The notes under the pieces: model-generated
The model's database searches: none
The model's input: only the letters and a program-made list of their open reading frames with translations
What the model was told of the DNA's origin: nothing
Assembly (NCBI GenBank): GCA_033220425.1
Contig: CM065646.1
Span: 4,595,501-4,659,500 of the forward strand
From: Lepraria neglecta
Lineage: Eukaryota; Ascomycota; Lecanoromycetes; Lecanorales; Stereocaulaceae
Direction: 5' to 3'
Length of the DNA stretch: 64,000 bases
Part shown: piece after piece, positions 20,234 through 54,504 of the stretch
How positions within the stretch are numbered: position 1 is the stretch's first letter
Layout of the letters: every line of letters starts with the position of its first letter
Program-made: the position numbers and the translations under genes

Positions 20234-20969
20234 TTATCCACCACCGAAAAGGCTGAGGTCAAGTTTGAGTCTCGTGAGGACCTCGTTCACGGAGTTTGCT
20301 ATAGTGTGTCTAATGTATTCCACCGTCGCTGTAAGGTTTTGCACTTCTTGCTGTAGGATTTGTTTGTCCACCTCAGCTGCCTGGATAATCAACTTCGATC
20401 GAGCTGCTTCTTCTTCGGCCAGATGCTTCAATTCTGTCGCCTTTATCGCCTGACCGTGTAACCTGACCAGCTCCGTGGCTATTGTGAGCTTCTCCATTTT
20501 TGACTGTCCGATCACTGTAGTGAAGCTAATTTCGGGGCTCGAGAGATTCTGTTTACTCCGTCAGTTATGCTTGAGCAATAGAAAGGACACCTACTGGATC
20601 TCCTCGGCTGTCCTCCTGCAGCTTACTCTCCGCCGCGTTACTCGATTCAGGTACCAGAACAGTTTCAAACGATACACCTACTCATCGACACAATTCCCCG
20701 TAAGCGCCGATAGAATGCTTGCTGAGTTGTCTCTTGAAGAGGTGTTCTTTCTCGGGCAGTATTTGCCAGGTATACGGATCATCAGCACAGGTGATCAGCC
20801 GTACTTCTGCCGGCTCAACTGATATTCTAAGCTTTGCTACTAGAGACTTTGTGAGCGACAGGTATTCTCTATTAGGTAGCCAGATCTTACGGATATGCTC
20901 GGACAATTTGTTGCGGCACTTCGCTCTATACGCAGCACGATTCAAGTTACTTGATCGAAATGTTGCCAT
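20234..20969 (-). CDS. coiled-coil hypothetical protein with one internal stop
   Basis: The start at 20969 (MATFRSSNLNRAAYRAKCRN) reads to a TGA after GAYGELCR (20682-20684), where CGA to TGA is the simplest explanation. The same frame continues VGVSFETVLVPESSNAAES to 20595. Intron 20594-20549 then leads in frame into NLSSPEISFTTVIGQSKMEK and a Leu/Glu-rich coiled coil (residues about 150-225) ending LSLFGGG at 20234. The product would be about 230 residues without the stop. It is convergent with the C2H2 relic; the two may be cargo or parts of one mobile unit, which is inference. The family was not recognised. Confidence 0.45.
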
Positions 20970-32410: not shown

Positions 32411-33311
32411 TCCTCCGAGTCAACCAGGGCAAATAGTTGTACCTGAGATTACAAGGCAGAGGATATCTGTATCAAATATCGCCATCGGACGAACGGCTCC
32501 ATGGTATGATCAGATCGGCCGCCTACAATTCTCGATAGAGAAAGTTACGAACCTGTGCTGCATCTGGCAAAGATATTCGTGGATGTCCTGGAAGACTGGC
32601 GGGGAACGACTGCACGAGCAAAGTCAGGCGTTAAGAGTTACAGGCGGCGACTTTTCCTTATAGCGTCGATGGACCAGCCCCCAGGAGTGTCAACCTAAAG
32701 AAGATCAAACGCGTTACACAGAGTATCGCATCCGGTAACATCTGTGTGGAAGCCATTTTCCACGGCTTGGTGGGCTACATCGAACAAACGGCATTGGATT
32801 TGACCAAGCCATGGTGGAAATTGGGCGGTTCTATTTATAAGTAGCCTCAAGAACAATAGGTTACCGGATTAACTGGACGGCTTTCGCTGCGGATAACGAA
32901 GCTGGTTCACTGGAGACTGTTACCAAGCTTATCCACGTTGTTTTGAGAAGCCTGGGCGGACCTCGGCAATTCCCGTGAATTCTAAACGGCGCCAGAACAT
33001 GTGATCCCTAGTCTTCTCTGGCGACGGTTTGCTGCTACCGTCGTTCTTGCCATGAGTCAGCTTCTTCAAGCCGTCTCGGGCCAAGAGTCAATTACCAGCG
33101 CCCGAATAAAGGAAGCGAAGTCAGGGTGGGACAGACTAAGTTACGACTGGTGATTTCACGATGCGCTATTGGTCGATCTGTCCAGCTAATCAGACGAGTA
33201 TTCTACTGCCTCTCCTTGCTCGCGCCGGGCCGCAGTACAAAGCTGCGAATCCCCTCTCTCATACAGATTGCACACTTGTCCAACTGCAAGATCGCAAAGC
33301 CTTGGACAGAG
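32411..33311. other. spacer and probable promoter of the TPR-NLR gene
   Basis: No gene is supported. The frame of the NLR's first exon is open upstream to 33126, but family-like sequence begins at MPFKFKGLFGS, so 33126-33311 is taken as leader. Confidence 0.4.
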
Positions 33312-36300
33312 ATGCCGTTCAAGTTCAAGGGCCTTTTCGGCTCAAGAGAGTCAAGGTCGCAATCACCACTGCCGACGCCTCCCCCGCCGATACCTGAACG
33401 GTCCGGCGCGTACTCCGCACAAGCCGCCGCACCGCAAGACCTAGCCGTCCAACCATCGCAGGCGACCATCGGTCCGGCATCGACTGCTACAAACACACAA
33501 GCTTCTCCAGCACCAGCACCAGCACCGATCCGAGAAGGCCAGAACTATGGCGCCAAAGTGCTGTACGATGGTGGCATGGAGGCGAGTGTCGATATCGTGT
33601 TCGTGCACGGATTGACGGGCAATGCGTACAACACCTGGCTTCACAAAGACACAAGGGTACACTGGCCAAGCGAACTTCTGAGGCAAGATATCCCGGACGC
33701 ACGCATTTTGAGCTTTGGCTATGATGCAGATATCGTCAACTTCTGGAACCCAGCATCTAACAGTCGACTGAGCAACCATGCTGAGAATATGGTTGGCGAC
33801 CTTGTACGAAAGCGAGAGAGAACGAATACAGAATCCAGAAAGATTCTATTTGTCGCTCATAGTCTCGGTGGACTTGTTACTGAGCAGGCTCTCAGCCATT
33901 CAAGGAATACCGCAGATAAGTTCCTCCACCAGATCGAGCGCTGCACGGCTGGGATAGTCTTCATCGGAGTCCCGCATTGTGGGTCTGATTTAGCATCATG
34001 GGCAAGCTTTGGGACACAAATGGTTAATCTCCTCAAACGCTCAAACTCAGACATCGTAGGAGTATTAGGGCCAGGGTCCGAAATGCTTCGCATGGTGGGA
34101 AATGGATTTCAAAACATCCTCAGACTAAGGAAGGACGAAGGGTCTGAGATCCCAATCACATGCTTCTATGAAGAACTTGGTGTTATAGGGGTTGGGGAGG
34201 TATGAATGTCAATGCATCACACTAGGCGCTGATCCTGATTCGTCTAGATTGTACCTTTACATTCCGCAGAGATTAGGGGCCATAGCTGTTATGGCATTCA
34301 CGCAAATCACATGGTAATCCGGGTGATGCCATCGATTATTCTATTTGCTAACCACCCTAGGATATGACGAAGTTCCCAAATCAAGAAGATCGCGGATACG
34401 ATGCTATTCTAGGTGAACTTCAGCGCTGGAAAAAGTCAGTCTACAGAGCACTGGGGAATGATCGGCAATCAGGTTAGGCTCGAGTCTTGGTTCATATCCC
34501 CTGGTGATTTTACGAAAGACGTCGCTACTAGTTTTAGTGGGCGTTGTCTAGAGCTCTGAATTCCTTCGCCTTGAATGTGTTAGTCAGGTACTTAAAAGCT
34601 GATCTTCTTGTTCTTGTCAGCGGTAGATAAAGTCACGGATCAGCGAGAAAATACGTCGCCCGGCATAAGGACCGAGATAGGTGACCGTAAAAAGCTGACG
34701 TCGGGGGGTACGATGGCCGAGCAGGGCTCGAATCGGTTTGGTGACAGTCATGCTTGGAACAGCCAGGTGGTCCAAGGAAACTTCTATAATGCAGTCATTA
34801 GTCAGTCCTCTCAACGCTAGTCGTGCTCCAAATCTAACCGAGACCCACATTACGGCTATACCAATCAATACAGAGAAAACAAGAGCTGATACGGGAGTCC
34901 AGATCCGACGGCTGCTGCCCAGATCCCTCCAAGCACCTATGAGGGTCACTATGCCCACTCGTCGCTCCGACCGGTCCCTAACTACGTCCCGCGACCGCGA
35001 TTGCACCAAAAGATCAAAGAACAGTTACATGACCTCCAGGATGACGGGGTGGAGGACGTGCGGATCCTGGTGGTGTGGGGGCTCGGTGGAGCGGGCAAGT
35101 CGCAACTGGTGCTCAACTACATCCGCGAGTATCGAAAAGACTACTCGGCAGTCTTCTGGATTGAAAGTGGATCCAAGGAGTCGATCGAGCGTGACTACAT
35201 CCAGATCTACCGGCTGCTATATGGACGCCCCCTCGGCGCGGGCCAAGAGATGGTAAAGGTCGAAGATGCGGTGCCTGCGGTCAAGCGCTGGTTCTACGGT
35301 CGTGAGGGGCGATGGCTGGTGGTTCTGGATAGTGCAGACGCTATCGACAACGATCGAGACAAATCCTATATCGACCTGGAATATTTCCTGCCCGACGCGC
35401 CCGGATTGCACGTTGTTATTACTTCACGGAGCTCGACGGCTAAGGGAATGACAACGCTGGACGCGGTGGGAGTGGCGGAGATGGAGCCCTCGGAAGCAAC
35501 AGAGCTGTTCCAGCGGTACGCGAAGATGACGGAGAAAGGCCAAGACATCGCGACGGAAGTGGCTCAAATCGTTAAAGAGCTGGGATACTTAGCCTTGGCA
35601 ATCATCCTGGCAGGTTCATACATATCGGTGACGCCTCGCTTGTCGTCTGATATTCGCAGATATCTCCCTGAGTACCAGCAGCGGCGGAAAGAGCTGCTCG
35701 GTCAGCCGGCTAAGCGGTATATACACCAATACGGGGAAAGCGTTCTGAGTACATGGGAAGTATCGTTCGAGGCGATTAAAGATCACAATCCGACGGCGGC
35801 CCGCTTACTTGGTCTGTTGGCGTTTATAAACTTTGAGGATATCTTTCTGGGTCTCTTCGATAGGGATAGGGCTGGTGTCCTCGCGAGCGCTCCCACTCGT
35901 GTTACGGACCCATCAGAGGCTACGACATCGCCTGATAAGACGTGGCCGATATTCCTCTTCTGCGGACAGAAATGGACAGCGTACGACCTGGAGTCGGCGT
36001 TCGGGACGCTTCAAAATTATTCGCTGATTCAGTGGAAATCGGATCAGGGGAGCTATGCAATGCACAAGCTTGTACATGCGTGGGGGCAAGATCGACTGGA
36101 GGCAGACAGGCAACGGCAGCTGAGCAGTCTCGCCCTCGAGCTTATGGCGGATGCCACCGCCCAGGATGAGATCGACCCTAGCTATCAACTCCGGTTGGTG
36201 CCGCATGTGATGGCTAGCTTTGGTATGTTTTCTCCCCTGTATGAATCACAGAACGAGCTTGCGATGGATCGACTCGCCATGATCGATGGGATGGAAGGCT

Positions 36301-38159
36301 TCCTGTTCAGGATAGGGCGGTGGTCTGAGGCGTATAAGATACAAGTGTTTCATTTCAGAAAAGCAGAGAAGATGCTGGGCAAGGAGCATCCATCTACGCT
36401 GTCCAGCATGAACAATCTGGCCGAGGTGTTGAGCAGTCAAGGCAATTACGAAGAGGCCGAGCGGATCCATCGACAAGCATTGGCGTTGAGGGAAAGGGTG
36501 CTAGGCAAGGAGCATCCTGATACGCTGGGAAGCATGAACAATCTGGCCGAGGTGTTGAGCAGTCAAGGCAATTACAAAGAGGCCGAGCGGATCCATCGAC
36601 ATACGTTGGCGTTAAGGGAAAGTGTGCTGGGCAAGGAGCATCCTGATACGCTGGAGAGTATGAACGATCTGGCCGAGGTGTTGAGCAATCAAGGCAATTA
36701 CAAAGATGCCGAGCGGATCCATCGACAAGCGTTGGCGTTAAGGGAAAGGGTGCTAGGCAAGGAGCATCCAGCTACGCTGACCAGCATGAACAATCTGGCA
36801 TGGGTGTTAACCAGCCAAGGCAATTACGAAGAGGCCGAGCGGATCCATCGACAAGAATTGGCGTTGTGTGAGACGGTGCTGGGCAAGGAGCATCCTGATA
36901 CGCTGGAGAGCATGAACAATCTGGCATTGGTGTTAAGCAGCCAAGGCAATTACGAAGAGGCCGAGCGGATCCATCGACAAACGTTGGCGTTGATGGAAAG
37001 GGTGCTAGGCAAGGAGCATCCAAATACGCTGACCAGCATGAACAATCTGGCATGGGTGTTAAGCAGCCAAGGCAATTACGAAGAGGCCGAGCGGATCCAT
37101 CGACAAGCGTTGGCGTTAAGGGAAAGGGTGCTAAGCAAGGAGCATCCTGATACGCTGGGGAGCATGAGCAATCTGGCATTGGTGTTAAGCAGCCAAGGCA
37201 ATTACGAAGAGGCCGAGCGGATCCATCGACAAACGTTGGCGTTGATGGAAAGGGTACTAGGCAAGGAGCATCCAAATACGCTGACCAGTATGAGCAATCT
37301 GGCATCGGTGTTGAGCAGTCAAGGCAATTACGAAGCCGAGCGGATCCATCGACAAGCGTTGGCGTTAAGGGAAAGGGTGCTAAGCAAGGAGCATCCTGAT
37401 ACGCTGACCAGTATGAACAATCTGGCATTAGTATTAAGCAGTCAAGGCAATTACGAAGAGGCCGAGCGGATCCATCGACAAACGTTGGCGTTGATGGAAA
37501 GGGTACTAGGCAAGGAGCATCCAACTACGCTGACCAGTATGAGCAATCTGGCATGGGTGTTGAGCAGTCAAGGCAATTACAAAGAGGCCGAGCGGATCCA
37601 TCGACAAGCGTTGGCGTTAAGGGAAAGGGTGCTAGGCAAGGAGCATCCTGATACGCTGACCAGTATGAACAATCTGGCATTAGTATTAAGCAGTCAAAGC
37701 AATTACGAAGAGGCCGAGCGGATCCATCGACAAACGTTGGCGTTGATGGAAAGGGTACTAGGCAAGGAGCATCCAACTACGCTGACCAGTATGAGCAATC
37801 TGGCATCGGTGTTGAGCAGTCAAGGCAATTATAAAGAGGCCGAGGAGATACATCGACAAGCGTTAGCGTTAAGGGAAAGTGTACTAGGCAAGGAGCATCC
37901 ATCTACGCTGACCAGCATGAACAATCTGGCATGGGTGTTGAGCAGTCAAGGCAATTAGGAAGAGGCCGAGCGGATCCATCGACAAGCGTTGGCGTTGATG
38001 GAAAGGGTGCTAGGCAAGGAGCATCCAACTACGCTGACCAGTATGAACAATCTGGCATCGGTGTTGAGCAGTCAAGGCAGTTACGAAGAGGCCGAGCGGG
38101 TAGTTCGACAAGCGTTGGCGCTGAAGGAGAGGGTGGTCAGGACTGACGAGTGGGAGTAG
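33312..38159 (+). CDS. NLR: alpha/beta-hydrolase (SesB-like) - NB-ARC - TPR
   Basis: A fungal NOD-like receptor, likely a cytoplasmic non-self sensor of the incompatibility type. Exons are 33312-34199, 34248-34313, 34361-34472, 34621-34800 and from 34903, all in frame. Residues about 85-355 form an alpha/beta hydrolase with VDIVFVHGLTGNAYNTW, the nucleophile elbow VAHSLGGL and GIHANHMDMTKF. A linker contains NSQVVQGNFYNAVI. NB-ARC begins at about 450 with P-loop GLGGAGKS (about 475), WLVVLDSADA (about 552) and VITSRSS. From about 917 there are 42-residue kinesin-light-chain-type TPRs. A TAG at 37956-37958, where other units have TAC (Tyr), ends the protein at 1433 residues; the same frame continues for two more TPRs to a second TAG at 38157-38159. 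The truncated form keeps 12 full repeats and could work. Confidence 0.85.
36405..38159 (+). repeat. 126-bp TPR-coding tandem array, about 14 units
   Basis: Each unit encodes a 42-residue TPR of the form SMNNLAxVLSSQGNYEEAER. Units are nearly identical at DNA level. From the fifth on they alternate between QTLALMERVLGKEHP and QALALRERVL types, a 252-bp higher-order period. The eighth unit lacks one codon (41 residues). Confidence 0.9.
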
Positions 38160-38790
38160 AGCTTTAACAGCACAGCATCAAGCCAAAGCCGGCACCCCGG
38201 GGAGCTGGCCGTAGTCTATATGCGCTGGCAGCATCCAGCATAAACACTACATTTAAATCTTTCGCGAGGCGACTATGTACAAAATGCATGAATTTGTAGA
38301 GGACGTGCTTGATGATCTTGCAATCAGGTAATCAATATACAATAATGACCCTTCAGAACGCGGCCCAAGTCGAGGCCTCTTGCACATTTGTGACCTCTGC
38401 ATACTGCAAGACTGATTGGTACTATCATTGCCATGCTTTTCCGACGAAGGACACCGAGAGTGTGCGCAGTCTTAAGCAACTCTTGAAACAGCCATCGTTG
38501 CCTTTCTCATGGCAACCGTGGGGTTTGTCCGATGACTCAGGTCCGTTCCCTCACTGGCCGATGTTTACGCGGGCAAAACACCAGGTTCATATACCTATTT
38601 TATGTATCTGACAAGAATTCATCACAAAAAATGAAGCCGACGGTTCTTGGAAGCGTCTATGGCTCACCAGTGGGGGAATTCCTTATTTTCCTCTGCCTGC
38701 ACTATGGCAAATACCACGCAAATCGATATTTTCTGTGGCGGTTTGATAGGAGTGAGGCCAGCCATCACAACAACAATTACTGGCTGGAAT
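38160..38790. other. no supported gene
   Basis: Short plus ORFs at 38309-38611 and 38532-38810 have no recognised similarity. This spacer follows the NLR terminator codon. Confidence 0.4.
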
Positions 38791-38931
38791 GGCAAGCGCC
38801 GCTGCTTTAGGGCACGTAATAGTAATAGAGAGATTGCTCCGACAAAAGGCCGATGTCAATGCTAGCAGAACGGCGGCTGGAGGTGGTCACCTAGCTGTGG
38901 TCGAAAGGCTGCGCGTTGCAGGTGCTACATA
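38791..38931 (+). pseudogene. ankyrin-repeat relic
   Basis: The frame reads ASAAALGHVIVIERLLRQKA, then DVNASRTAAGGGHLAVVERL, RVAGAT and a stop: about one and a half ankyrin repeats with the typical GGGHLxVVERLL and ADVNA signatures. There is no open frame upstream, so this is the tail of a lost ankyrin or NLR gene. It ends against the methyltransferase relic on the other strand. Confidence 0.6.
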
Positions 38932-39748
38932 GTCGCTGGAATAATTTTGATACCCCGCTCTTTCATCTTCTTATTCTGCTTCGCCGCCTGCTTAATTACC
39001 TTCTTCCGGGCATTACCTGTCAGCGACTCGTCAATTGCATACTTCGTGTGTTGTATATTGACAGTGACCCGAGCAACCGGAGCGAGCTCGAATATAGTGA
39101 TAACAGCAGCGATGTCGGCAGTGCATCTGAAACCTTGCTTACGGTAGAATTCCATAGCATCGCTAGTATAGCGTTGACCGAACCAGTGATACTGCTGAGC
39201 CGAGAGATTATCGGGGACGGTGTTGGCTTTGCATTTCTCAACCCAGTCCCATACTGTAGAGGCGCCATTCTCGAGTCGCCCGTGGAGTGGGAGCTGCTCG
39301 GGCATGTCATTGACAATAACGAGTCCAGCTGCAGCAGCGAGCTCTCTCGCATAGCGACGACACTCTTCCCAAGTCTGAGGTTCTGTGATAATGCGGCAGG
39401 TCTGGTAAGGAGTGGTACCGATCATTAGAGACCCGACGCAGCGTCGTGGATGTGGTATGTCCAACATGGGCCTCCCCCCTGGACTAAGTAAGGCCGCCCA
39501 CCGTCGGAGCTGCTCTTCTCGAAGACTGACCCCATGCTAATATAATCGTACGCCGCGATGAGATCTATGCTGCAGAGCTGATTGAGGCGTTCGTGTCGAT
39601 GTTCGGTATTAGCATCTTCGGTGCTACTCTGGGCGATACTTGCATTGATGAACGCCAAATTAACGCTTGATGGATCACGTTTATCTGGCCTAGTGAGGTG
39701 GGTTACAGCTGACTGAGATGCCATGATGAGGATGATTGAACAGATCAA
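38925..39748 (-). pseudogene. SAM-dependent methyltransferase, frame-shifted
   Basis: The upstream frame from about 39721 (MASQSAVTHLTRPDKRDPSS) runs to IDLIAAYDYISM at about 39535. After a one-base change it continues GVSLREEQLRRWAALLSPGG, PMLDIPHPRRCVG, TWEECRRYARELAAAAGLVI and WFGQRYTSDAMEFYRKQGF, ending in a very basic tail (RKKVIKQAAKQNKKMKERGI) at 38925. LLSPGG and LDIPHPRR are class I methyltransferase strands 4-5. Glycine-rich motif I is not seen. It is closely related to 26333-26930. The frame change could be an unrecognised intron, but no good donor-acceptor pair was found. Confidence 0.55.
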
Positions 39749-40700
39749 GCTTTAAGTATCTAAGGTTCAAAAATTGATAAGGAATTAGAGTCCACTAATC
39801 TGAAGTTTAAGATCAATGTGGAATTGAAGTCTAATGATGATAGAGAAGATCGAGGAGAGATTGTAAGTGATGTAGATAGATAAGGAGAGAACCAGAAGGA
39901 TAGCGTCAGTAAGAGTGCGCAAGGGTAATTGTATAGAAGGGATAGTCTATGGAAGACAGTCGGAGGAAGGTAGAGATAGAAATCAGGGAAGCGAAAAAGT
40001 AGCAGTGAATGATAGCCGCCGAGGCGGGGCATTAGAGGGAGCGACGCCCCCCCTTCTTTCCTCCTCTGTTCTTCCTCTCTTCGAAGGAAGATTATATCTC
40101 TTATCTCTATCTACTACGCTTATTCTCGATTATTCTATTTACTCCCTATAACTATAGGCCGCTAAGAGGTGATATGAATCTCACGCCCTCAATATATGCA
40201 AACAGTAACTCCGTGATACTATAATAAGGACCTAGTAGTCTAGCTACAGAGGCATACGGGCCTCCAGCTTGGGTTACCCCCTACGTAGTATTCACGGTGG
40301 GAAATTATCCTTTAAGTTCCTTTTCTAATAATACGTAGATAGGTCTAAATATTAGTTACTTACCGGGTTCGAGTTCGATCTTATAATCCTATAGTTAATA
40401 CTTAGGTAAGGCTTTTACCGTTATCTCTTCCTTAAATAAGTACGCCTACTTATTATACCCCTAAGGGATATTCGAAGGTATATTAGTTCCTTTCTTAACT
40501 CTTACTTATTTACCCCGCTAACCCTTACTAGTATTGGGATTCATAACACTCCCTAGACTTCGCGAACATTCACCGCCCATTTCGGACTTGAATTGAAGGT
40601 CTATGAAACCCATCTAGGAAATGAGGAAAATGTCTATATAACAAGACATTCGCCTAACCAATTAGGACGGCCTCGCATCCACCATCTATCAATTCCTGAG
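39749..40700. other. AT-rich, low-complexity region
   Basis: Strongly AT-rich with TATC/CTAT runs (about 40080-40140) and TA-rich text to 40560, suggestive of a decayed repeat altered by C-to-T mutation. It contains the ATTCACGGTGGGAAATT motif at about 40290. No gene is supported. Confidence 0.5.
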
Positions 40701-41883
40701 ATGGCGACACCGAAGACCGTTGATATCCAGACGGTCCGGATAACGGCACTGAAAGGTCGTGTTGATCTGAATTCTCAAGACGCCCAGACCTCATTACGAG
40801 AAGGCGCCGAAATAGAGACCGTTCAGACGTCCGCCTGCGTCATCACGATTCTCATTGGCACAAATTTTCGATATGAACTCTGCTTCCCCACCCCCGTGAT
40901 GAGATCGCGCAGCAAACTTCGGCTTGCGAGGAAATCATCATATGTCGAGATCGTGGCTCCTGTTATGGAGCAAGACTCGCTCGAGCACTTCATGTATCCG
41001 TCCTTCATCGATGAATCCCACCCTGTAAGTTGGAACATGCCTCGACTAATCCTCAATCGCCTTCCTATACTGGACACAACTAAAACGCGAAACCTGCAAT
41101 GGCTAATCACCCATACGTCCCTGATGTTCTCGACACGCGAACGTACTCTCAGGCAGACATCTATGAACATCGCTGGTGGGATCCACAGCAATGCCAGATT
41201 GAACTACAAGAAATCCCTGTTCTCGATGTTCATGAGCTTCAGTGGCCTCCAGGGAACGAAGTCGAAGGTCTTCGGGTTCAGTGATGCAACCCGAGGCGGG
41301 GTGAGTATACTCATCCTGGGATCTCGACTGAGGCTAGACCTGGCGAATCACACCGTAGTCCTGGATGCGGCCGTTCTGCTATTGACACCTCGGCTGATTC
41401 CACGGATTCGTGCATTCCTTGAAGCGATATCGGCCACGGGAGTCCGCGTCATTAATATGAACGACGACGAAATGAGGTTGTGGAAGCAAACAATCTCGGC
41501 GTGTGTTGAACGCTGTCGAGATTGGAGCCATACTTCATCTTGCGAGTATCTCATAAGCTCGTGTATACCTATTTCCTTCGAAAGTCATAAGGATTTCCCA
41601 TGCTCATGTGGGAAAGGCAGATTCCCTACCGGATATATGGCCGAAATCCCAAGGTGGGAAATGATTTCCAAATACTCGCTTCGAATCGCTCTTTCGCCAT
41701 CATTTCCCGTGCCATATGTGGAGGGCGTCTGTGAGGCCGACGATATAACGCTGAGGAGCAGTGATGTCAGTGCGTGCGATGCTTGTGGCAAAGACAAGAC
41801 AAGCGGCGGAACGGCCCTTCTGAAGTGCGCGCGTTGCCAGACGACTAAGTATTGCTCTATTAAATGCCAGCGTGCACAATGAG
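40701..41883 (+). CDS. MYND zinc-finger protein
   Basis: An uninterrupted frame of 393 residues from MATPKTVDIQTVRITALKGR. The body (residues 1-345) is not recognised. It includes a small Cys-rich piece (DFPCSCGKGRF). The C-terminus is a MYND finger: CDACGK, LLKCARC and YCSIKCQRAQ. The stop at 41881-41883 falls before the last His and Cys. WNNHWKC, which would complete the finger, lies about 30 bases downstream, so either a very short intron is spliced or the 3' end is damaged; a GTGCAC...GTAG intron of 34 bases keeps frame but is shorter than the others here. MYND domains bind proline-rich partners. The start could be 40593 if the earlier ATG is used. Confidence 0.7.
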
Positions 41884-42080
41884 TCGCTTCGCAGAGTTGA
41901 TGTAGTTGCGTGGAATAACCATTGGAAGTGTAATGGATAATGATGCTGCTTGTTCAGGCGCAGAGGCACAACCCTTCGTCGCATAGCTGCGAAAACTCCA
42001 AGGAATCGCTATACGAAAAGACCAAATTGATTATCAAAGATGTCTCCACCAGTACAATGATCTCCTAGCTCTCGGCTTCA

Positions 42081-43235
42081 TCAAACCATTTGTAGATTGC
42101 GACATGCGCGAGGTACCAGTATTGCGAGAAATATCCCAAGCGCACACGCAGTGTCCAAATCTCCATTCATATACTTCCAAGCAGCAAGACCTGCTCCGAT
42201 CATTACACCGATGAGATCACCTTTAGGTGGTATACTAATTGTATGCCAGCCGAGCTCGATATTCAGCCCGCGGTAGCAACGAGTATCTTGAAGAGCCTCT
42301 TTCGGAGATTGAGGAATTCGTAAAGATCTGTTGGCGTTAGTGTATTTGCGTACAGTGCACCCGACGAGGCTCAAGCTTACCGCCCATTGTAGATACAGCT
42401 TTCCTGGGCTAGACCCTTTAAAGAGCTTCCCTCAGCCGCCGTCAGCGGGGCTTTGAAGTTTTCTGTCAAGAAGCCCAAGGACTTTAGGCCTTTCAATCGT
42501 AGCTTTGCACTCTCAGCTTGCTTGACGAAGCATGGGTCGTTAGCGAAATCCATCATTTTCAGACATTCCTCAGTATGGCAGTTCGTTTCCGGGTCACAGA
42601 AGTCGTTCGTCAAGTAATCCTGAGAGCTCTTTGCAAGATCGATCTGGGAATTGGCTTCTTCCTCGATCTTCTTATAATCCAAGTGCTCTAGAAGAATACC
42701 GTATCGATCTTCTCGTAGAGAGCGGATTTGGAACTTAGAGAAAATGTTCAGCAGAGCTCGTATAGAGTCACTAGGATATTAGGACCTTGACTTCTTCGAC
42801 CTTGACGATACCGTAGAAGGGTATATATCTGTGCCAAGGTCCCACCTGAGCCCAAAAGGCTCGATTCAACTTCTGGCAGATCACAACATCGCAATTCTCA
42901 CAGGTACAAGGTTTTTCGGGCTTGGACCCATGGCGGCGAGCCAGAGGGGCCGCAGCATGGACCTTAACCTGGATGGCCCAGCGCGTCAAGTCATGGTCCC
43001 CTCCACAGATGAAAACGACCTGTCCTTTCTTTTGTTGTGATTCTGATGGTCGCGTGGTAGCTGCAGACTGTGGCTGGGACCTTTTTACGCCAGCGTTCGA
43101 TTTGATGACGGCCGTGAAGGGCTCGCGAGTAGATTGTGTTCGTTCGGGTCGGACCATAACCCTCTCGGGCACTTGAAGTCCCTGGCCTTGCCCCTCGAGG
43201 TCAGGTTCGAGCTGATTTTGTGGAGCTGAATACAT
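42081..43235 (-). CDS. hypothetical protein, spliced, family not recognised
   Basis: The first frame (43235-42771) has a basic Gln/Ser/Arg-rich N-terminus, then VVFICGGDHDLTRWAIQVKV, a CTCENCDVVIC cysteine cluster and WAQVGPWHRYIPFYGIVKVE. A second frame (about 42765-42381) continues SIRALLNIFSKFQIRSLRED, CDPETNCHTEECLKMMD and GLKSLGFLTENFK. Intron 42380-42328 (GTAAGC donor, CTAACG branch point) joins it in frame to SLRIPQSPKEALQD and a hydrophobic tail (IGVMIGAGLAAWKY, GIFLAILVP) ending at 42081. The change between the first two frames near 42770 has no clear intron, so the gene may be broken there. The C-terminal part could be a membrane anchor. Confidence 0.45.
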
Positions 43236-44461
43236 TGCGAAGTACAGTGTAAATCTTGGTGACTGTGCAGAGGTGAAGAAGACAGCCAGGCGCGACCGTT
43301 CAACAATTTAATACATTAGGCAGCCAAAGAGCTCCTCAGCTGAGGGTCAGGCCGAGAGCATTGTAAGGCTGAGGCTGAGAGTGAGGATGGCGGTAAGGCT
43401 GAGGGTGTTGGTGGGCTGGGAGTGCGAGTAGTGACCAGTCCAGCAGTAACCAAATCAGCAGCGGCGAGCACGTCAGCCATGACCAACGACCGACATGTTA
43501 TCGGACAATGAAGATCAAAGTCTCGCCTCGCAGAACGGTCTCGGTCTGGCCGTCGAAGCAAGATCAGGCGAGGATCGTCCCCTTACAGAGCTTATTACAG
43601 TTGCACTATCGAGTTCTGTCATAAGCGGCGATCGCGAGACGTTCTTATGGAGCGTAATGGGCGGCCGGAGCGAGAAATTGAGGGGTGAAGGACAGTGAGA
43701 AAGCAAGAGTAAGCCTGACTCGCACCCACGAAGATCCTACCAGTATGAGTCGTGTCATATCAAAGCTTGATGCCTCGCGGGCTTGGAATACTCGTTTCTG
43801 TCACATGGAAAATGGAGACCAGAAGAAATAGCCCCCGTATCCGTTGCCTATCAACTTTGCTGTCCCAAGCCCACGCGTCTCTCTGTTAAGTAAGTATGGC
43901 AGGCGTGGTAATCGGAGAAGTACCTATAGCTGATAACACGAAGGTCGCTCGTCCATTGAGTGACCTGTCTGCCTCCAGATACAAGCGAATTTTACTTCCA
44001 AAGGCACAACTCTCCGTTTCGATGGACCTTCGAGTCGTTATCGAGGCTAGATGTTCACGGTCAAAGTTGCAACACGTCACCCACCATGCAGGAAGTGATG
44101 CGAACAGTCTATGCTTCGGAAATCGGAGAGTTGTGTCGCACGTTCCCCGGAAGAAAGCCTCACTCGGCTTGGCCAATCGTATCGCACGACTTGGCGTTTG
44201 ATGATAGTGCTAAGCATTGTTATCATATCTGACTACCACTAATAATTCCGATGTACTCGCTTCCCCACTTTTCATACTGTTGATGCAGTTCGAGCGCATG
44301 CGAACCCTTCAACGTGTTTGTTCTTGATTTGGTCTCCTCTCAGCGTTATCCCCTGCATGGCTAAGCACCTCGTTTCAGGGGCTAAGTCTTGGCGCATCAC
44401 AGTCGCAACTTTTATAACAGGAAAAACTCAACGCGCATCTTGCGACATCCTTTCAAACTTA
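43236..44461. other. no supported gene
   Basis: Overlapping short ORFs in several frames (43896-44232 plus, 43316-43706 both strands) have no recognisable motifs. The MITE begins at 44462. Confidence 0.35.
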
Positions 44462-44991
44462 CAGTCGATTGCAGAACCATTGGCGCGAGAAAATCAGAAT
44501 TTTGGGGGGCGCTCCGGGGGTAGGGAAGGCGCGCGAAATGGGCCAAAACTTTGGGAAACCAGTTATACAGTAACGACCAACGCTGCTCCGGCCTAGTAAA
44601 CGGGGAATTCAAGCGCCTATCCAGCTTTATTAGGCTATAAACTTTGTATATCTAATGCAGCGTTAGACAGCCATCGCAAAGGCGATTCTATGATTTTTTG
44701 ATTTTTTTTGTTGATTCGCGCTAGTATAGGGCTGAAAAGTAAACAAAAAAAATCCGATTTTTAACCCTATTTGCGATGGCTGTCCAGCGCTATACTATAT
44801 ATATAAAGCTGATAGCCTAATAGAGCTGGACGAGCCTATTAATCACCCGTTTACTGTAACTTCTACGCAGCGTTGGTTGTTACTGTATAGCTGGTTTTCC
44901 AAATTTTTGGCCCATTTCGCGCGCCTTCCCTACCCCCGGAGCGCCCCCCAAAATTCTGATTTTCTCGCGCCAATGGTTCTGCAATCGACTG
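44462..44991. mobile_element. foldback MITE with TA target duplication
   Basis: The left arm CAGTCGATTGCAGAACCATT... and its near-perfect inverse ending at 44991 match over about 125 bases, with weaker pairing continuing inward to ACAGCCATCGCAAA (about 44668) and TTTGCGATGGCTGT (about 44770). TA flanks both ends (44460-44461, 44992-44993). CAGT ends plus a TA target suggest the Tc1/mariner (pogo/Fot1) superfamily. The 530-base unit has no transposase. Confidence 0.8.
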
Positions 44992-44993
44992 TA

Positions 44994-45642
44994 CAGTGCA
45001 TCGATGCATAGCTGCCCAAGCCCCCAGAGAGACCTAAAGCCTTCGACGTGATATCTCTCCGAGTAGCCGTGTCGTGACGCAGTAAAAGTTGGCTGATCTT
45101 CCAACAGCCTCCAGCACTTCTCACATCCCCTTAAGCCCCCGCTGGCCCCGATGAACTTTCCATGGGCAGGCGTAATTACGTTCCAAAGCCTCCGAAGAAA
45201 CGTAGTAATTTCGGTTCTACAAGCAATACCATCGCTCGTGCCATCTTTGGCACTCTCTATACAAGCAAGAACCTCGTTCCAGTGGCGCCCCGACGGATCG
45301 CGAGGGTGTGTCTTCCTCCTGTATCAATCCTCCTCCTTGATGCTTCGTGACCCTGCGTCTTCTTTAACGGATAGTGAAAGACTCGAATAGGTGTAAGGAG
45401 CAGAAAGCGCCTGCTATAATAGGCTGAGGATGATCGAGGCGGTGCGCGCACCCTATTCGATGGCTGGCTGCATTGGCTAGACTGCCGTTTGCCGGAAACG
45501 CTTTTCAGCTGAGGCACACGCGGTTACACAGCTCTTCAAACATTTCGCAGAACAAAACAACTAAATCTGTATCCATCACTTTTGCTAACTGTTCCAAGAA
45601 AATAATCTCCGCTGAACAAGATCGAGAGCGAGGTCGGCTTCG
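44994..45642. other. spacer and promoter of ankyrin NLR
   Basis: No supported gene. The NLR start codon at 45643 follows. Confidence 0.45.
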
Positions 45643-48600
45643 ATGACTGACCCATTCTCCGTCGCGGCAGGCGTGGCGGGGTTGGTCTCGCTAGGAATCG
45701 AAGTAACGCAGTCGCTAGTCGATTTCTACAATGCCTATAAAAAGCGGGACTCGGACCTCGTTGGCATGATTGAAAGGCTTGAAAGCCTCCTGGACATCTT
45801 CCAATGCCTTGAAAAGACGTTATTAGATCGCAATTTCCAAGCGGACGAACAAGGCTTGATCAAGAGGATTGAGACGTTGATCAAAAACTGCGATGAATTA
45901 ATTCAAGAACTGCGGGATGAGTGTCAGAAGTTTAGCAAAGCCTCCTCGAACGGAATCAAAGCTGCTGTCAGAGTTGCGGGACATCGAGCGATATATCCTT
46001 TCCGACAAAGCACCCTGCAGAAACTCGATGAAGATATTGGTGAAATACGTGCCAACCTCTCCTCTGCGCTGGACGTGCTACAGCTCAAGGACACCAAGAG
46101 AATTCAAGATGATATTACTGAAACAAAAGTCCTTTGGGACTTGGTCAGAACCAGTCAAATTTCATCGATTCTTCGTGACTGGCTAAATGCACCTGATGCC
46201 ACCATCGACCATAATACGGCGTGCGCAAAGAAACACCCTGGCACAGGGACGTGGCTCGTCGATAGTCCCCAATTTTCGAGATGGTTGACAGAGGGAAATT
46301 CTACTTTGTGGCTGAACGGATTTGCGGGTTCTGGCAAGTCAGTCTTGTGCTCAACGGCGATAAATTTCACTCTGCGGCGCCGAAGATCTGACCCCAATGT
46401 CGGGATTGCATTCTTTTATTTCACCTTCAACGACAAGTGGAAACAAGATGTGTCGGCTATGCTACGAGCACTGCTGCTACAGTTGTCGAGCCAGCTCCAA
46501 GACGGCCATACAGATCTTACCCGGCTGCACGATTCATACAAAGCCGGCACACCTCCGTCGCCGGTGCTGATCGAGTATCTTCGGCGCCTGATTCAAAGAT
46601 TTCACCAGGTGTATATTATGATGGACGCGCTCGACGAGAGTCCTCGGAATACAGCACGAGAGGATGTGCTTGATGCGATAGAGACGATGCGAAAATGGAG
46701 CCTACAAGGTTTGCACCTCTTCGTCACAAGCCGGGATGAGCCGGATATTTGCGACTCTCTCGACCTTTCTGCCACCCAACAAGTCATAATGCAAAATGCA
46801 GGAATAAACAAGGATATTGCCGACTTCATATCCGGTCGGTTTGATACAGACCGAAAACTACGAGAATTGTTGCCATACCATGACAATATTCAAGAAGCAT
46901 TGTCCAAACGTGCCAAGGGCGTGTAAGTGGATAATAAGGATGGAGTGGTAGCGTTAAAAGATACCGGCTGACCTATTTACAGGTTCCGATGGGTTGAATG
47001 CCAATTTAAGTCTTTGCGGTCGTGCCCTCGCAGTGAAGATCACCTCGAGGGCCTACTCAACTCGTTGCCTCAATCACTGGACGAGACGTACGAGCGGATG
47101 TTGTGTAATATCGACCATTATTTGATTGAAGACGCTCGACGGATCTTGACGTTGCTTTGCTTTGCTCCAAGGCCGTTAACGGTGCGAGAGGTTATCGACG
47201 GCGTCGCCGTCAAACTCAACAACTCTCCAGGACTGAATCGTAAACGTCGTTTGCAAGATTCCAACGATATTCGCGAGATATGTATAGGTTTCATCGATAT
47301 CGGTCTCGGTGCTGATTACACGACTGAGACTTACCACGAAGAAGAGTTGACACCGACCGTTCGAATTGCTCATTTCTCTGTCCAGGAATACTTGGAATCC
47401 GAACGTATCCTGCATCAGAAGGCTGCAATCTTCAGCTTAACCAGCGTTACGGCACATGCTGAAATTGCACAGATTTGTTTAATATACCTGCTTGAGCATG
47501 ACCTTTCAAGCTCAAACCTGGATCAGGGTCTTCTCAAGGAATTCCCACTGGCTCAATTCGCAGCCAGGTATTGGTATCACCATTACCAGAACGCGGTAAA
47601 TTGCGCTCCCGGAATGGACGATTTCATCTTGAAGTTATTTCAACGTCAGGATTCGTTTGTGACTTGGGTTAAGTTGCACGACATGGATCGACCCTGGACC
47701 ACTTCTATTGACTTTAGCCGCGTATTGGACAATATTGCGGCTCCTGTCTATTATGCGTCATTACTGGGACTTGACCAGGCTTTGCATCAATTAATCAATA
47801 GTGAGCAACTAGAGAGCACACCGATACCTGCTCTATCACCTGCATCTACGTCCAAGGTTTCCAAAAAAGTCAACACTCAAGGTGGACACTTTGGCAACGC
47901 ACTACAGGCGGCGTTACAGGGAGGTCATTACAGGATAGTACAGACGCTGCTGGACGAAGGAGCTGATATCAACGCTCAAGGTGGATTCTATGGCAACGCA
48001 CTGCAGGCGGCGTCATACGGAGGTTATGACAAAGTAGTACAGATATTACTGGATAAAGGAGCTGATATCAACGCTCAAGGTGGATTCTATGGCAACGCAC
48101 TGCAGGCGGCGTCATACGGAGGTTATGACAAAGTAGTACAGATATTACTGGATAAAGGAGCTGATATCAACACTCAAGGTGGAGAGTATAGCAACGCACT
48201 GCAGGCGGCGTCAGACGGAGGTCATGACAAAGTAGTGCAGACGCTGCTGGACAAAGGAGCTGATATCAACGCTCAAGGTCGAGAGTATGGCAACGCACTG
48301 CAGGCGGCGTCATACGGAGGTCATGACAAAGTAGTACAGACGCTGCTGGACAAAGGAGCTGATATCAACGCTCAAGGTGGATTCTATAGCAACGCACTGC
48401 AGGCGGCGTCAGACGGAGGTCATGACAAAGTAGTGCAGACGCTGCTGGACAAAGGAGCTGATATCAACGCTCAAGGTGGATTCTTTGGCACCGCACTGCA
48501 GGCGGCGTCATACGGAGGTCATGACAAAGTAGTGCAGACGCTGCTGGACAAAGGAGCTGATATCAACGCTCAAGGTGGAGGCTATGGCAACGCACTGCAG

Positions 48601-49440
48601 GCGGCGTCAGACGGAGGTCATGACAAAGTAGTGCAGACGCTGCTGGACAAAGGAGCTGATATCAACGCTCAAGGTGGATTCTTTGGCAACGCACTACAGG
48701 CGGCGTCATATCGAGGTCACGATAAAGTGGTGCGGCTGCTACTGAATCATGATACTGTCGTAGATCGGAAGGATATACAAGGCAGAACTCCATTCCATCT
48801 GGCCTGTGCTGGAGGGTGGATGAAAACTGTTGAGATGTTGTCAAGCTTTGGATCAGATTCGACTGTCATTGACACGCAAGGGCGTAATTGTCTCCATCAT
48901 GCGGCCTCCAAAGGTTCCATTGAAACAGTCAAGTGGCTTCTGAAGGAAGGTTTTGATCCTAACGATGCTGATCGAGATGGCTGGACCTCTTTGCATTGGG
49001 CTGCTAAAAACGGATCTGTTGGTACCATAGAGGTCTTAAAGGCTGCAGGTGCCAGTTCGACTATCGAGGTTATCGAAGGCTGGACACCAGACTCAGTTGC
49101 AATTTTTCATCACAACAAACCTTCATCAATATCTCATGAAAATGCAAAGTCTGAGCTAGCAGCAAAACGGAATATCAGTTCTTCGGCCGCGGCGGTTGAA
49201 TCAATGGGTGATGAATGCAAGGTTAGCCCTGGCATTTGGCAGAATGGGTACTATTGCAATGGCTGTCTTTTGGTGAGCTTCAACCTCAATAAACTTCTAA
49301 ATTTCTTCATCTAATACAAATAGGACATATATGGTGCGCTTTACAAGTGTTCGGATTCCCCAGATTTTCACTACTGCTTTAAATGCCAAAACTCATCAGA
49401 TCAGACCCATGTTAGTCACAGGTTTGAGAAATTGGAATAA
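45643..49440 (+). CDS. NLR: HeLo-like - NACHT - ankyrin - ZZ finger
   Basis: A fungal NOD-like receptor of 1228 residues. Exons are 45643-46922, 46983-49272 and 49324-49440; both introns are GT-AG and keep frame. Residues 1-200 resemble the HeLo-like/fungal_N helical domain (TDPFSVAAGVAGLVSLGIEV), a membrane-active cell-death effector type in this family. NACHT has Walker A GFAGSGKS (about 226) and Walker B VYIMMDALDESP (about 322); a winged-helix region follows with TLLCFAPRPLTVREVIDGV and VRIAHFSVQEYLES. Ankyrin repeats run from about 726 to 1125, nine of them almost identical, then three ordinary ones. The end is a ZZ-type finger split by the last intron: YYCNGC, DIYGALYKCSDSPDFHYC, FKCQ and HVSHRFE. 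CSDS stands where CSDC is usual, so one zinc ligand may be missing. The gene is otherwise intact. Confidence 0.88.
47881..48771 (+). repeat. 99-bp ankyrin-coding tandem array, 9 units
   Basis: Units encode GGxxGNALQAASxGGHDKVV followed by QTLLDKGADINAQ. From the fourth unit ASDGGH and ASYGGH alternate, a 198-bp higher-order period; the second and third are almost identical to each other. Confidence 0.9.
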
Positions 49441-50967
49441 GCAGTCAAATTATCAAGTGATTATAATATCACACAATACTTTCATTAGCATTGCAGGATA
49501 TGAAGCTAGTACGGTTGAGGCATTTACTGGTTTTATAGTGCAACTTTCTTGAAAGCCACGTTGGCATTGTATTCAAATGTCAAGACTCTAGCACGAAGCA
49601 TATCTAACGGAAGGAATTCTTTCAGCCAGAAGGTCTTCGTCCTTGGATGTGTCCACGTCTCAATGGGGTCTTTATTCAAATTATGGACAGCGACAAGACT
49701 GGGAGGATGTAATTATCAGTGGCTATTCTGACGATGGTACCACAGCAGTATAGGTGTAAGGTTTCGATGACCCACTCGACCTTCGAAGCCTTCTCTTCTT
49801 TTGCCGGAGGATGTAGAACCGTCGAACCCATATCGACAACGCCTGTTTCCGCCAGGTCGATCACGGTGTTGTCTATGTAAGTGGGTGCGCTGCTTGAAGA
49901 AATTCCTGGATTGTTCTTTTGGACAGCACCCGTGGTCAGTTTGCCACGACCCAGTCGTATTCACCTTCAGAAAAATAATTCCTCAGATGTGGGCCACGTT
50001 TGAATGCTAAATTTAATAGCTAAATATAGTCTAGCCTTATAGAGCTGTTTCCGAGGGCGAATAAGGCTGATTGACCCCGCCAATTTGGGAGCGCGAATCG
50101 ACATCTCGTTCAACCTTTAGCATACTTACCGAGCAGTTTTGGCTCCACGACGTTGCTGTCTTCTCCTTGGGGGTGGAGTCAACTTTGTGGACGAAATATT
50201 CGAGACACTAATAACAAAGACCAAAGCCAGGCCTCAGCCAGCTGGGGAAACCCATAACCTTGTCGAGATGCGGCATTAAAACGCCCGAGGTGACCTTTCT
50301 AAGCAACTTACACGGTGGGGCACGGGGCTTGGGCCTATAAGTCTTTCAGATAATGAGTTAACAGGGCTGTCAGATGGATATAAGTAGAATAGACCTAAAT
50401 AGTTCTGGCCTTTGTAAGCAATTGGATCCGCAAGTGTCGGTCCCACATCATCCACGGCATATCTGTTGTAAATTATTCATACAAAAGCAGGGAAACAACG
50501 ATGTCACAGCCCTCATATATGAAGCAAGGGTATCAAATTTCAATCGTTTCAAGTTCACGGTGCACTGTGCGTAAATCTACGCCAACAGCAGGTCAAAAAA
50601 TCGAAATAAGTGATGGAAACGATGGCGGCAAAGATAGAGACTAAGAGCTTTTTAATAGGTGTACAAATCGTCCTTCGGCAGGTTCGGGTGACACGTGAAT
50701 CCCAAATGTCGCCATTTCAAGGACACGAAGCCCTTCATCTAACTAAAGCAGATCTAAAATTACAACGCGAAGGGAAGCACAATGCTAGGTCAGGATTATC
50801 TTTGTCAAGGGCAGTAAGAGATTACGAGAACGAAGCTGCGAGACACGTGATCAACAGCAGAGGGTCACAGAACCCCGCCAACGGTCGGTGTGCTACCGGA
50901 TGGGAAGGGCGATAAGGACGTATCATAAATCAGAAGCCGCAAACCCGTACGTGAAGGTCGAGTAATG
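49441..50967. other. spacer with possible gene remnants
   Basis: A minus-strand frame at about 49930-49690 (VIDLAETGVVDMGSTVLHPP, VEWVIETLHLYCCGTI) looks like coding sequence but is short and shifts frame. Plus ORF 50610-50915 is unrecognised. Nothing else is supported. Confidence 0.35.
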
Positions 50968-53180
50968 TCAAGTGGGGGTCTTGTGCACCAGCTCTACGTG
51001 ATTTTGCAAATGCATTGTGCTTCCCAAATCGACGTGGCACCTCGGATGAGGGCAGGCGATCGGCTGACCGTCCGGGTGATGGTGAAGGTGTTTGCGATGA
51101 AGGTGCTTCTTCAGGTCGCCGCGGCTGTGGAAGGACTTCAGGCGGGTCTCGGTGGGCAATGCTTCACAGCCAAGACGAAAAATGCATTGAGTGGCTTCGC
51201 ATTTGATCGGGATGGAGTCGGAAAGACTCGGCAGATGGAGGACCGATGGCCGTGTCAGATCCCGTTCAAGCTTGGAATCCAAAGCGGAAGGTTTCAGGCA
51301 CCGTGGACGCTTCCCTTCCTGCAAGCGGCAGAGGGCCGTTAAAGCATTGATCGCTTCCACCCGCCGTCTGCACTCTTCTTCGGGAGACGGGGTCGCAAAA
51401 GTGAAGAGCGCGTCAATAACCCGAACACGCTCAACGAAGACGTAATCCTCTGCCTTCGCCATCTCCAGTTCTGTCGACGGCAATCCTTTCAGCTGTCGCT
51501 GGATGTCGATCACCAGCTGCTCCCTCTTATACCTCGCTTTGACCTCTTGTAAGAGAGCCTCCTCCTGCCGCCGTTTCATGTTGCGATGAGCGTGGTACGC
51601 TTTTTGGTACTGGTCGTACACCGGCGTCCCCTTCATGCTCGCGATGGATCCGTGTTTCTCTCTAATAAGCTTGCACAGCGTCTTCTGCCTCCGGCGAAGG
51701 AGTCTCACCTCCGGGTGGCGATCGACTTCTGCTCGTTGGGCAGCATCGAGCTTGCGAGGCCGTCGTCGATCGATGGTGCGACTCATCCCACTGGCCAGTC
51801 GCATCAACGCGGTTTGCGGCTCCAGACCACGGTAGGCGGCTCCCGTATCACCCGTAATGTACCTCGAGAGATTGCTTTTTAAGAACACGGTGGAGTTGTG
51901 ATGTTGCAAAATCAGATTCCGTTGCGATTCGCTGATGAAGCCTGTGCACGGGTCAGCGAAAAGATCGCAGGGATGTCAACGGCGGCTACTCACTGCTATT
52001 GTCGAGGGCTTCGCCACTGCCGCGCCGGAAGGTGTATGGACCCGTGGGAAGCTCCATGCCGGTGACACTCCCAAGAGTGACCATCCGCGAGCGGAGAGTA
52101 CTGTCGGACAGAGCTTCGTCGTCGGAAGTTCGAACCCCGTTCACGGTGGGTTTGGACCGGCGGAAGAGGGGAACGTGTTGTATCGCTTCCTTGAGAGGCA
52201 CTGGCAACTGTTTCTGTCCAGAGGGGATCCGGAAGCGGAATAATTGTTTGGGGGAAGTCAATTCGGGCGCGGCGAAGGCCTGATCGGTATAAGCAGGTTC
52301 ACGTGAGGACAAAGCAACAAGCAAGGTTCGTCAGGTACATCAAGAATCCCGAACTCGTTCCTATAAGAATTGTCAGCGGTCCAGCCAAACAGTCCGTCAC
52401 CGCGAAGGGAGCGCAAAAGGGGAAACGGACGTCTCTTTCTCGCCTAGTTAGGCCTTGGTATTCTTGAACCAGCCTTCGAGGAAGTTCCCCTCCTTTCGGA
52501 TCTGGAAGCAAAGTGATTTTGATGTCTTTATAGCAAACACCCAAGAGAGCAGGCCGGTTGCCCGTGATCCCTGCCAGCTGCATGATCAAGCCCAGCTGTA
52601 TACGGTGCCGCTCGTGATCAAAGGCGATCTCAACGGAGAGGATTAATGTCTTCAGGAGCTCGAACTCGTCCTCGGCCCGCATGATGGGCTTCTTCTTCTT
52701 CTCCATCCTTAATCCATGCTTCAGGGCCAGCCGTTGTCTCACCAGGTACCGGTTAGCCGAGAAGAAACGTGTACTGAGGCGCCTACCCCATTCATCTGGC
52801 TCTTAATGAGCGGGTCGATCTCGAGACAGCCCGTCTCTTTCTTTCGCACCAGGCAAAACACATTCTGGTATGTTTGCAGGGTACTGGCCGCACCCAGCCG
52901 ATCCTTGCGAACGGAGAGTAGCCAGTCAAAAAAGGCGAAGAGGACGTTGATGGAAATGCCCTTCAGAGCCATGACAGGCTCTTTCCCAGTGAATTCGCAA
53001 TATCTGCCGAGTTTGATTAGATTTCGCCGGTCCACTGATCGAAAGTAGTAACCTCTCCTTACCGATACTAGAGGTTCTTGATCCAACTCTGCAGATCCTC
53101 GCTGCTATCCTTGTAGTGAGGGCCAGAACGTCTAACTCGACTTCCATTTGCTTGCAGTATTCTGCCGAGAGCTCCATCGT
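50968..53180 (-). pseudogene. DUF3435 tyrosine recombinase (Starship captain family)
   Basis: DUF3435 proteins are the tyrosine recombinases that mobilise Starship elements in Pezizomycotina. In order on the minus strand: RRNLIKLGRYCEFTGKEPVM and FFDWLLSVRKDRLGAASTLQ (N-terminal DNA-binding part); EFELLKTLILSVEIAFDHER and LAGITGNRPALL (catalytic Arg I region); LDVPDEPCLLLCPHVNLL and FAAPELTSPKQLFRFRIPSG; YTFRRGSGEALD (Arg II region); QHHNSTVFLKSNLSRYITGD, where the family has FLKxYL; AYRGLEPQTALMRLASGMSR; then a C-terminal double finger with SRGDLKKHLHRKHLHHH and CPHPRC. The frame changes near 52740, 52310 and 51950. Some may be introns, but no pair restores frame cleanly, so the gene is probably broken. 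The catalytic Tyr reads Asn (AAT, 51871-51873 complement). The 5' end lies near 53.1-53.2 kb. Confidence 0.85.
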
Positions 53181-54261
53181 GTTTGTGGCAGCTTAGCCGT
53201 GTCTTGGAGGAGAGATAAGGTCGGCGAGCGTGGACGACGGGTGAGCGACGTGAAGGTCGAACGGCGAAGATAGAGGTTGGAGAGTACGAGGGTTGGATGG
53301 GTGGAGGGACACGAAGAAAGGGTCGTCAAAGATGATGGGAACGGTGGAGTGGGGTGGCTGAGCAGAGCAACCAGTTCTGGAGGTCGGGGGGAACGATGAT
53401 ATAAATACATGGCGCCGGACGATGACTACCGGGACCAGCTGAGCGATGATGGGTTGAGGACGAGGACGAGGATGGCGGCATGAAACGGTCGGCATCATGG
53501 TGGGGTGGTGGGCGCCAGAGCGACCGGGGAAGGTTTGAAGCGGCGGGGGAAACCTGGCAGCGTCCGAACCGGCCGAAAACGGCAGCTGTTGCGCCGTCCC
53601 CTCGTTTAATCTTATAAAAAAAGAGAAAAGCAAAGAGTATAGAGATCTAATCCTCTTACTCGGGTCGGTCACCCCAGGGAGGATATCACCACGTATAGAA
53701 TGGACCTGCAATAGACGATCTAGTGGAGCCTCAGTGGACTTGCTGAGTTCTCGCCTATCTTAATCCATTTGTAAAAGAATCGTATATATATTCCTTTTCT
53801 GCCTCAGAAGACTCTCGTCCTGTTCAACGAATCCTTTATATCCCACCCCGGTAGGTTTTCGCCAACGACGTGGTCAAAGTCTTTAGAGAGCAAGTTGATA
53901 GGCAACGGATGCGATGCTTTATAAGCTTATATCAGCACACGATCGATATATCAGGTGGGTACGTACGACTTCTGATATAGTGGGAGGCCACGGTTCCTGA
54001 TCAATCGATCGGTAAGTATAATATCTCCTATTCCCGTGGATGATCGGTGTAATATCTGCGCAGCATAAACGTGCCAGCTGATCTGCCTTTTTCATCAAGT
54101 TCGGTTTTTCTTCTGATAAATTGTTGGGCATTTGCTTTTTTGAGTATAACATCTTATTAAGTTGCTAACCGCGCCTTAACAGATATAAAAGCCTGCAGTT
54201 GTCAATAGATATCTGCGGAACTTAATGATATTGTTCCTTTATAAGAATAAGCTGAACGCCC
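53181..54261. other. region upstream of captain; expected element edge
   Basis: Purine/GC-rich on the plus strand to about 53560, then AT-rich. ORFs here are unsupported. If the captain marks a Starship, its 5' border should lie in this stretch, but I could not identify a terminal repeat or target duplication. Confidence 0.35.
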
Positions 54262-54500: not shown

Positions 54501-54504
54501 GGAA

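Follow-up and report, generated by a model that had tools for sequence, protein, structure and literature searches.

A captain, the DUF3435 tyrosine-recombinase gene that marks Starship elements, lies beside two large NOD-like receptor (NLR) genes in a 64,000-nucleotide stretch of the Lepraria neglecta genome. We call the whole of this stretch the window; it spans C1:4595501-4659500 in an assembly of 42.0 Mb and 11 contigs (C1 to C11). Genes with introns, numerous HET genes, NLRs and DUF3435 suit a filamentous ascomycete. All comparisons of homology described below were made inside this one genome. The three genes sit in an island of repeats and accessory genes that extends from about 18.6 to about 62 kb of the window and is flanked on both sides by conserved genes. 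To the left are phosphoglucomutase, desaturase and Inp1, with a DNA methyltransferase and a MIF4G protein beyond them. To the right is an HD-domain gene at 63.4 kb, followed by CUE, formamidase and SMC proteins. The right limit of the island was set from the low G+C content and the ratios typical of repeat-induced point mutation (RIP) at 58-62 kb. The features are collected in Table 1.

Table 1. Features of the island and its surroundings, in coordinates of the window
Feature	Position	Strand	Basis or remark
Remnant, 5'-truncated, of the downstream region of another DUF3435 family; left limit of island	18637..21188	+	DNA paralogy
LTR (long terminal repeat)-retrotransposon-like remnant	31000..31999	-	integrase-like piece 31415-31999, rve E 0.018, below Pfam cut-off
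NLR1: DUF676 esterase-like open reading frame, then NB-ARC and TPR array	33012..37955	+	Pfam
3' flank of NLR1 with ankyrin relic	38334..38931	+	aligned C5 copy (L039)
221-bp repeat, high-copy	40310-40533		at least 39 other places (385 candidates at first look)
MYND-finger gene	40557..41879	+	PF01753 E 5.2e-6
Palindromic inverted-repeat element, many genome copies	44460..44993	.	80% self-match on other strand, 545 columns
NLR2: PigL_N, NPHP3_N/NACHT, uniform ankyrin array; likely former cargo	45616..49311	+	Pfam
DUF3435 captain pseudogene	50968..53177	-	PF11917 (Pfam); frame break near 52.29 kb; Asn at presumed nucleophile Tyr
Block shared with the upstream regions of two paralogous captains; candidate 5' terminus, or a promoter	53556..53614	-	sequence comparison
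Dispersed non-coding repeat starting at candidate edge	53613..54147 (one copy matches to 54348)	.	five other genome places
Fungal protein kinase gene	55118..57178	-	PF17667 E 2.5e-87; right of candidate edge
Long inverted-repeat element	57429-58064		

A preliminary description, made from the letters of the window, had proposed a Starship at this locus, and its account of the genes stands. It placed a DUF3435 recombinase at 51-53.2 kb, reading toward lower coordinates, and on the 3' side of this captain two large NLRs of different architecture, which we find as NB-ARC/TPR (33.0-38.0 kb) and NACHT/ankyrin (45.6-49.3 kb) genes. NLR1 consists of an esterase-like open reading frame (ORF; 33012-34202) and a second part with NB-ARC and TPR domains (34890-37955). 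Its TPR array (36373-38135; 14 units of 126 bp, 88% match) extends past the stop at 37,958. NLR2 is made of two ORFs, PigL_N with NPHP3_N/NACHT (45616-46923) and ankyrins (46972-49311), and the 48 bases between them are probably an intron. Its ankyrin array has 8.7 units of 99 bp that match at 91%. Both genes thus join an NB-ARC or NACHT domain to tandem repeats more than about 80% alike, the definition of NLRs with high internal conservation in the accessible part of PMC12222747. The genes treated there have similarly near-uniform tandem units, and ankyrin and TPR types are mentioned; unlike NLR1 and NLR2, the main genes are of the WD40 type, and a link to captains was not searched for.

The captain itself is dead. 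PF11917 matches 50971-51975 on the minus strand (E 2e-52), with more pieces at 51989-52330 (E 3.2e-28) and 52302-52802 (E 4.2e-16), and the start codon lies near 53,177. The coding pieces change frame several times; 52786-52738 and 51993-51942 are likely GT-AG introns, and others are possible. Near 52.29 kb is a frame break. Ten bases are missing here relative to the closest paralog, at C1:3.52 Mb (72% DNA identity over 2.27 kb), and the frame shifts inside the recombinase domain. A scan for introns that covered some donor words and one branch-site word offered none at the break. In addition, the window captain has asparagine where five of five paralogs (C1:3.52 Mb, C8, C5, C3 and C7) have tyrosine. 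We take this column to be the nucleophile position of tyrosine recombinases. Both the TGNRP and the YTFR motif retain their arginines. The window therefore holds a DUF3435 gene as a pseudogene, and not a working captain with intact frame and catalytic residues, a point that had escaped the preliminary description. The gene is not RIP-like (TpA/ApT 0.68 and 0.75 in its two 2-kb bins); RIP-like ratios do occur at the captain loci of C1:3.52 Mb (1.34) and C5 (1.19), and there are stops in the aligned frames of the C1:3.52 Mb, C5 and C8 paralogs. Compared by sequence with solved structures, the captain tail found no meaningful relative (two weak matches, E 0.32 and 0.65).

Where would an element led by this captain have begun? 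About 435 bp upstream of the start codon lies a block that recurs upstream of the captains at C1:3.52 Mb (82% over 61 bp, E 2e-8 genome-wide) and C8:0.54 Mb (79% over 43 bp). Without gaps, the matches are 50/61 and 38/61, against at most 32/61 at the other loci compared and a background maximum of 31/61 in the first 50 kb of the window. The homology stops at ATCTTATAA (53617) in the C1:3.52 Mb pair and at 53599 in the C8 pair, that is, within 18 bp. With a common end point at three loci, the block is a plausible candidate for the 5' edge, at about 53.61 kb and so inside the 53.2-54.3 kb proposed earlier. The block could instead be a conserved promoter. It was not found in the sequence examined at the C3, C5 and C7 captains, and a sequence model of it recovered only its three source places among 31 sequences searched. 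The spacing recalls the Starship Sanctuary, for which the available text of PMC12506042 gives a captain about 350 bp from the 5' edge and NLRs among the genes. Sanctuary differs: it is 170-196 kb long and comes with direct repeats and empty sites, features not shown for the window.

Are NLRs found beside captains by more than chance? The genome holds 36 DUF3435 pieces, equal to 21 loci, and at least 169 NLR loci, drawn from NPHP3_N (150 pieces), NB-ARC (30) and TPR_12 arrays (104 pieces, collapsed by hand). HET genes, which served as a control, occupy at least 147 loci. These counts are lower bounds, as the scoring covered the best 150 of 197 candidates for NPHP3_N, 150 of 196 for HET and 112 of 721 for TPR_12. 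In the random placements, C2 was taken as 5.95 Mb long and C9-C11 were outside. As a separate observation, the DUF3435 loci favour the minus strand of their contig (17 of 21, two-sided binomial 0.007), possibly by chance.

A convergent NLR lies within 10 kb on the 3' side of the captain at 4 of the 21 loci, against 0.46 expected, and a single one of 1000 random placements reached four (P about 0.001). The four loci are the window, C3:1.06 Mb, C6:3.01 Mb and C8:0.44 Mb. With the window left out, 3 of 20 loci remain (P 0.009, binomial, with the mean from random placement). The same class is enriched at 5 kb (2 against 0.20, P 0.015) and at 20 kb (5 against 0.82, P 0.003), and NLRs on any side and in any orientation within 10 kb number 5 against 1.66 (P 0.015). 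The other arrangements are unremarkable: one NLR on the 5' side (0.84 expected) and one on the 3' side in the same orientation (0.41 expected). Among the matches listed, HET genes fall into the convergent 3'-side class at 0 of the 21 loci, with 0.35 expected. The pattern had already been noticed at four places (the window, C3, C5 and C8) when the test was made, and random placement ignores genome compartments; these figures are therefore a description of the pattern and no confirmation of a rule.

One further case lies outside the count because its NLR relic is absent among the family matches. On C5, a tail of the NLR1 type with an ankyrin relic ends about 200 bp from the tail of a captain of the window's type. 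Taken together with C1, C3, C6 and C8, the arrangement is seen beside different captains and involves NLRs of both the TPR and the ankyrin type. At C8:433832-441537, a TPR NLR is convergent with a DUF3435 locus of the family to which the remnant at 18.6-21.2 kb of the window belongs; this is a second captain family with the same NLR neighbourhood.

The main rival explanation is that captain and receptors met by chance: a captain relic and independently duplicated NLRs would have gathered in a repeat-rich island between Inp1 and the HD-domain gene. The island does contain several unrelated repeats, NLRs are numerous in this genome, and several close relatives of the two receptors lie away from captains. 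Relatives of NLR1 without a close DUF3435 gene are found at C7:0.47, C7:3.92, C4:4.14, C4:2.35, C5:4.63, C6:2.61 and C8:0.76 Mb, and relatives of NLR2 at C3:2.98 and C7:2.97 Mb. The failure to find borders, described below, also suits this explanation. It does not lead one to expect the excess of convergent NLRs on the 3' side, confined to that side and orientation and missing for HET genes, nor the repetition of the neighbourhood on C5. We regard it as unlikely, though it deserves to be taken seriously.

Another accessory gene bears on the ancestry of the captain. DUF3723 (31 pieces, taken as 13 loci) occurs within 30 kb of DUF3435 at 3 of the 21 loci, against 0.33 expected (P 0.0035, with the 30-kb limit chosen after the places had been seen). 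Two of the three are on the 3' side, and one of these two lies 28 kb inside the captain at C1:3.52 Mb, the closest paralog of ours. This clustering indicates that the clade of the window captain is probably a Starship clade; it speaks for ancestry and not for present structure. As far as the consulted parts of the papers go, NLRs are known accessory genes of Starships (PMC12506042), and one NLR occurs in Gaeumannomyces elements (PMC12134995).

We conclude that the locus is probably what remains of a Starship-type element, derelict and composite, whose cargo likely included NLR2 and perhaps NLR1. While alive, the captain at the 5' end would have cut and rejoined DNA at two termini, its own a short way upstream of the gene and the other at the distal end. 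The segment 3' of the captain would have moved as cargo, with NLR2 as the nearest gene. The captain's reading frame would later have been broken and its nucleophilic tyrosine replaced. Further transposons and a piece of a different DUF3435 element would have gathered in the island, and the distal end would have vanished or decayed beyond recognition. The NLRs may remain as resident receptors of the non-self-recognition type, with recombination keeping their repeats alike. The earlier proposal that they are Starship cargo thus gains from the enriched placement on the inner side of captains; that NLR1 travelled with the captain is unproven, and we do not claim that NLR1, or the whole of 33-54 kb, moved as one unit.

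What weighs against such a history? An intact Starship is contradicted by the damage to the captain, and also by the island around it, which continues rightward past the candidate edge to about 62 kb. At the left limit of the island is a remnant that the preliminary description had not reported. It matches the DNA following DUF3435 at C7:2.33, C8:0.44, C2:3.23, C6:1.51, C4:3.77, C4:0.49 and C8:3.63 Mb, and in four of these seven the match begins at 18637-18639. The remnant has no Pfam match of its own (ORF 18894-19337), so its identity rests on paralogy. As a piece of another DUF3435 family, it makes the island composite. A single Starship running from 18.6 to 53.6 kb was considered and not adopted, since the left remnant is of the other family and in the other orientation.

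A relic, too, has points against it, beyond the promoter alternative, the captains at which the block was not found, the NLR relatives away from captains and the limits of the placement figures. Of the Starship accessory set of NLR, DUF3723, ferric reductase (FRE) and patatin-like (PLP) genes, the NLR is present. No patatin or ferric reductase was found among 27 distinct window ORFs scanned, and DUF3723 is absent from the window and lies more than 1.1 Mb away at its nearest on C1. More serious is the second border. The preliminary description saw no obvious borders, and our repeat-pair searches agree: no pair that combined a direct with an inverted repeat reached the threshold between 18.0 and 50.9 kb (among 12 random control segments, two had a single pair that did). 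Searches of the local 264 kb with words from the edge, taken as 10-mers, 11-mers, 13-mers with one mismatch and 15-mers with two, gave no second exact copy. Compared with each other, the 18.6-kb and 53.6-kb junctions have no direct 6-base word in common and only one 6-base inverted match. Starship direct repeats 2-12 bp long are reported in the accessible part of PMC12153272, so very short ones would be missed by these searches. In the window, then, no convincing repeats were found at both ends. Starships measure about 15 kb or more; here there is one candidate edge, and no left limit is assigned. Among the matches listed, the interval 39540-44440 has no multi-gene copy elsewhere and matches, besides itself, only the 221-bp repeat (best 40 of 385 candidates); 49120-51000 likewise has none and matches only a 149-base piece on C2. 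Of the Starship first proposed, the 5' edge accordingly survives as a candidate; the intact element does not, for its captain is dead, its second border was not found and its island is composite and continues to the right.

The preliminary description had also looked to direct repeats near 53.0-54.5 kb that would match a distant site, and none is convincing. One 9-bp direct repeat, ATCTTATAA, occurs at 40378 and 53609 and would delimit a 13-kb element. We rejected this candidate: the left copy sits inside an uninterrupted copy of the 221-bp repeat, so there is no edge there. For this 9-bp word, 0.39 are expected in the window, and 5 of 100 shuffles had two or more.

The missing far border would also be explained if the captain had moved with little or no cargo, into a place where the NLRs were already resident. 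Captain-only movement leaves both the genome-wide placement of NLRs and the C5 neighbourhood without explanation, and we think it very unlikely.

A different use of the candidate edge starts from the dispersed repeat that begins there. Could this repeat be the distal (3') end of such elements? The window would then contain either two adjoining elements, end to end, or a junction at which ends had been rejoined. Two of its five other copies lie 3' of captains, at 14 kb (C8) and 3.5 kb (C6), in the same relative orientation, for which we calculated a chance of about 1e-4 after the places had been seen. The C8 copy begins, by eye, at the same TATAA as the window copy. Against this, the remaining three copies have no captain nearby, and the copy at C3:909120 runs on past the right limit supposed here. 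In the window the repeat has ATCTTAT at each of its limits, which would also fit an ordinary small transposon. The C8 flank, tried as an empty site, is single-copy: it matches nothing else in the genome, the local 264 kb included. That the repeat is a distal end is, in our judgement, highly improbable. Between the repeat and the kinase gene, at 54263-54598, are two adjoining short tandem arrays, one with units of about 49/89 bp and one with 18-bp units.

The derelict, composite relic that we favour has precedents. Derelict Starships with pseudogenised captains have already been described (PMC11623301, in the text available), and like the window they combine a broken DUF3435 captain with former cargo left behind. 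In those cases homologous intact elements in other genomes supply the link; in the window it comes from comparison within one genome and one candidate edge. A dead captain with a conserved upstream block may show how a derelict element can be recognised from a single genome. In the parts of the literature that our search reached, no rule of convergent NLRs beside captains was found; the original Starship survey was outside that search. If the pairing holds in other genomes, it would give a simple, testable rule for immune-type receptors in Starships. It would also offer a route by which fungal NLR repertoires grow, in which the elements die and the receptors stay. A bolder proposal is that Starship-type elements in this lineage repeatedly carry a convergent NLR immediately inside the captain as a selected module and not as random cargo; it might, for example, be a gene for defence or self-recognition that serves to retain the element or to keep out rivals. 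We consider this speculative and rather improbable.

The remaining features agree with the preliminary description for the most part. The MYND gene is present, as are transposon remnants in the form of the integrase-like piece, the inverted-repeat elements and the 221-bp repeat; 31000-31374, next to the integrase-like piece, has no Pfam match. The ankyrin relic is less clear. In the window it gives a weak match only (38756-38929, E 0.085), and support for it comes from the C5 copy, which looks ankyrin-like by eye. Neither Rfam nor a tRNA search reported anything in the window. Finally, the ORFs at 26336-26917 and 38928-39536, both on the minus strand and without a Pfam match, are alike by eye (QWAA.L.P.G....DI.HPRR). 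They flank NLR1, one to its left and the other behind it.

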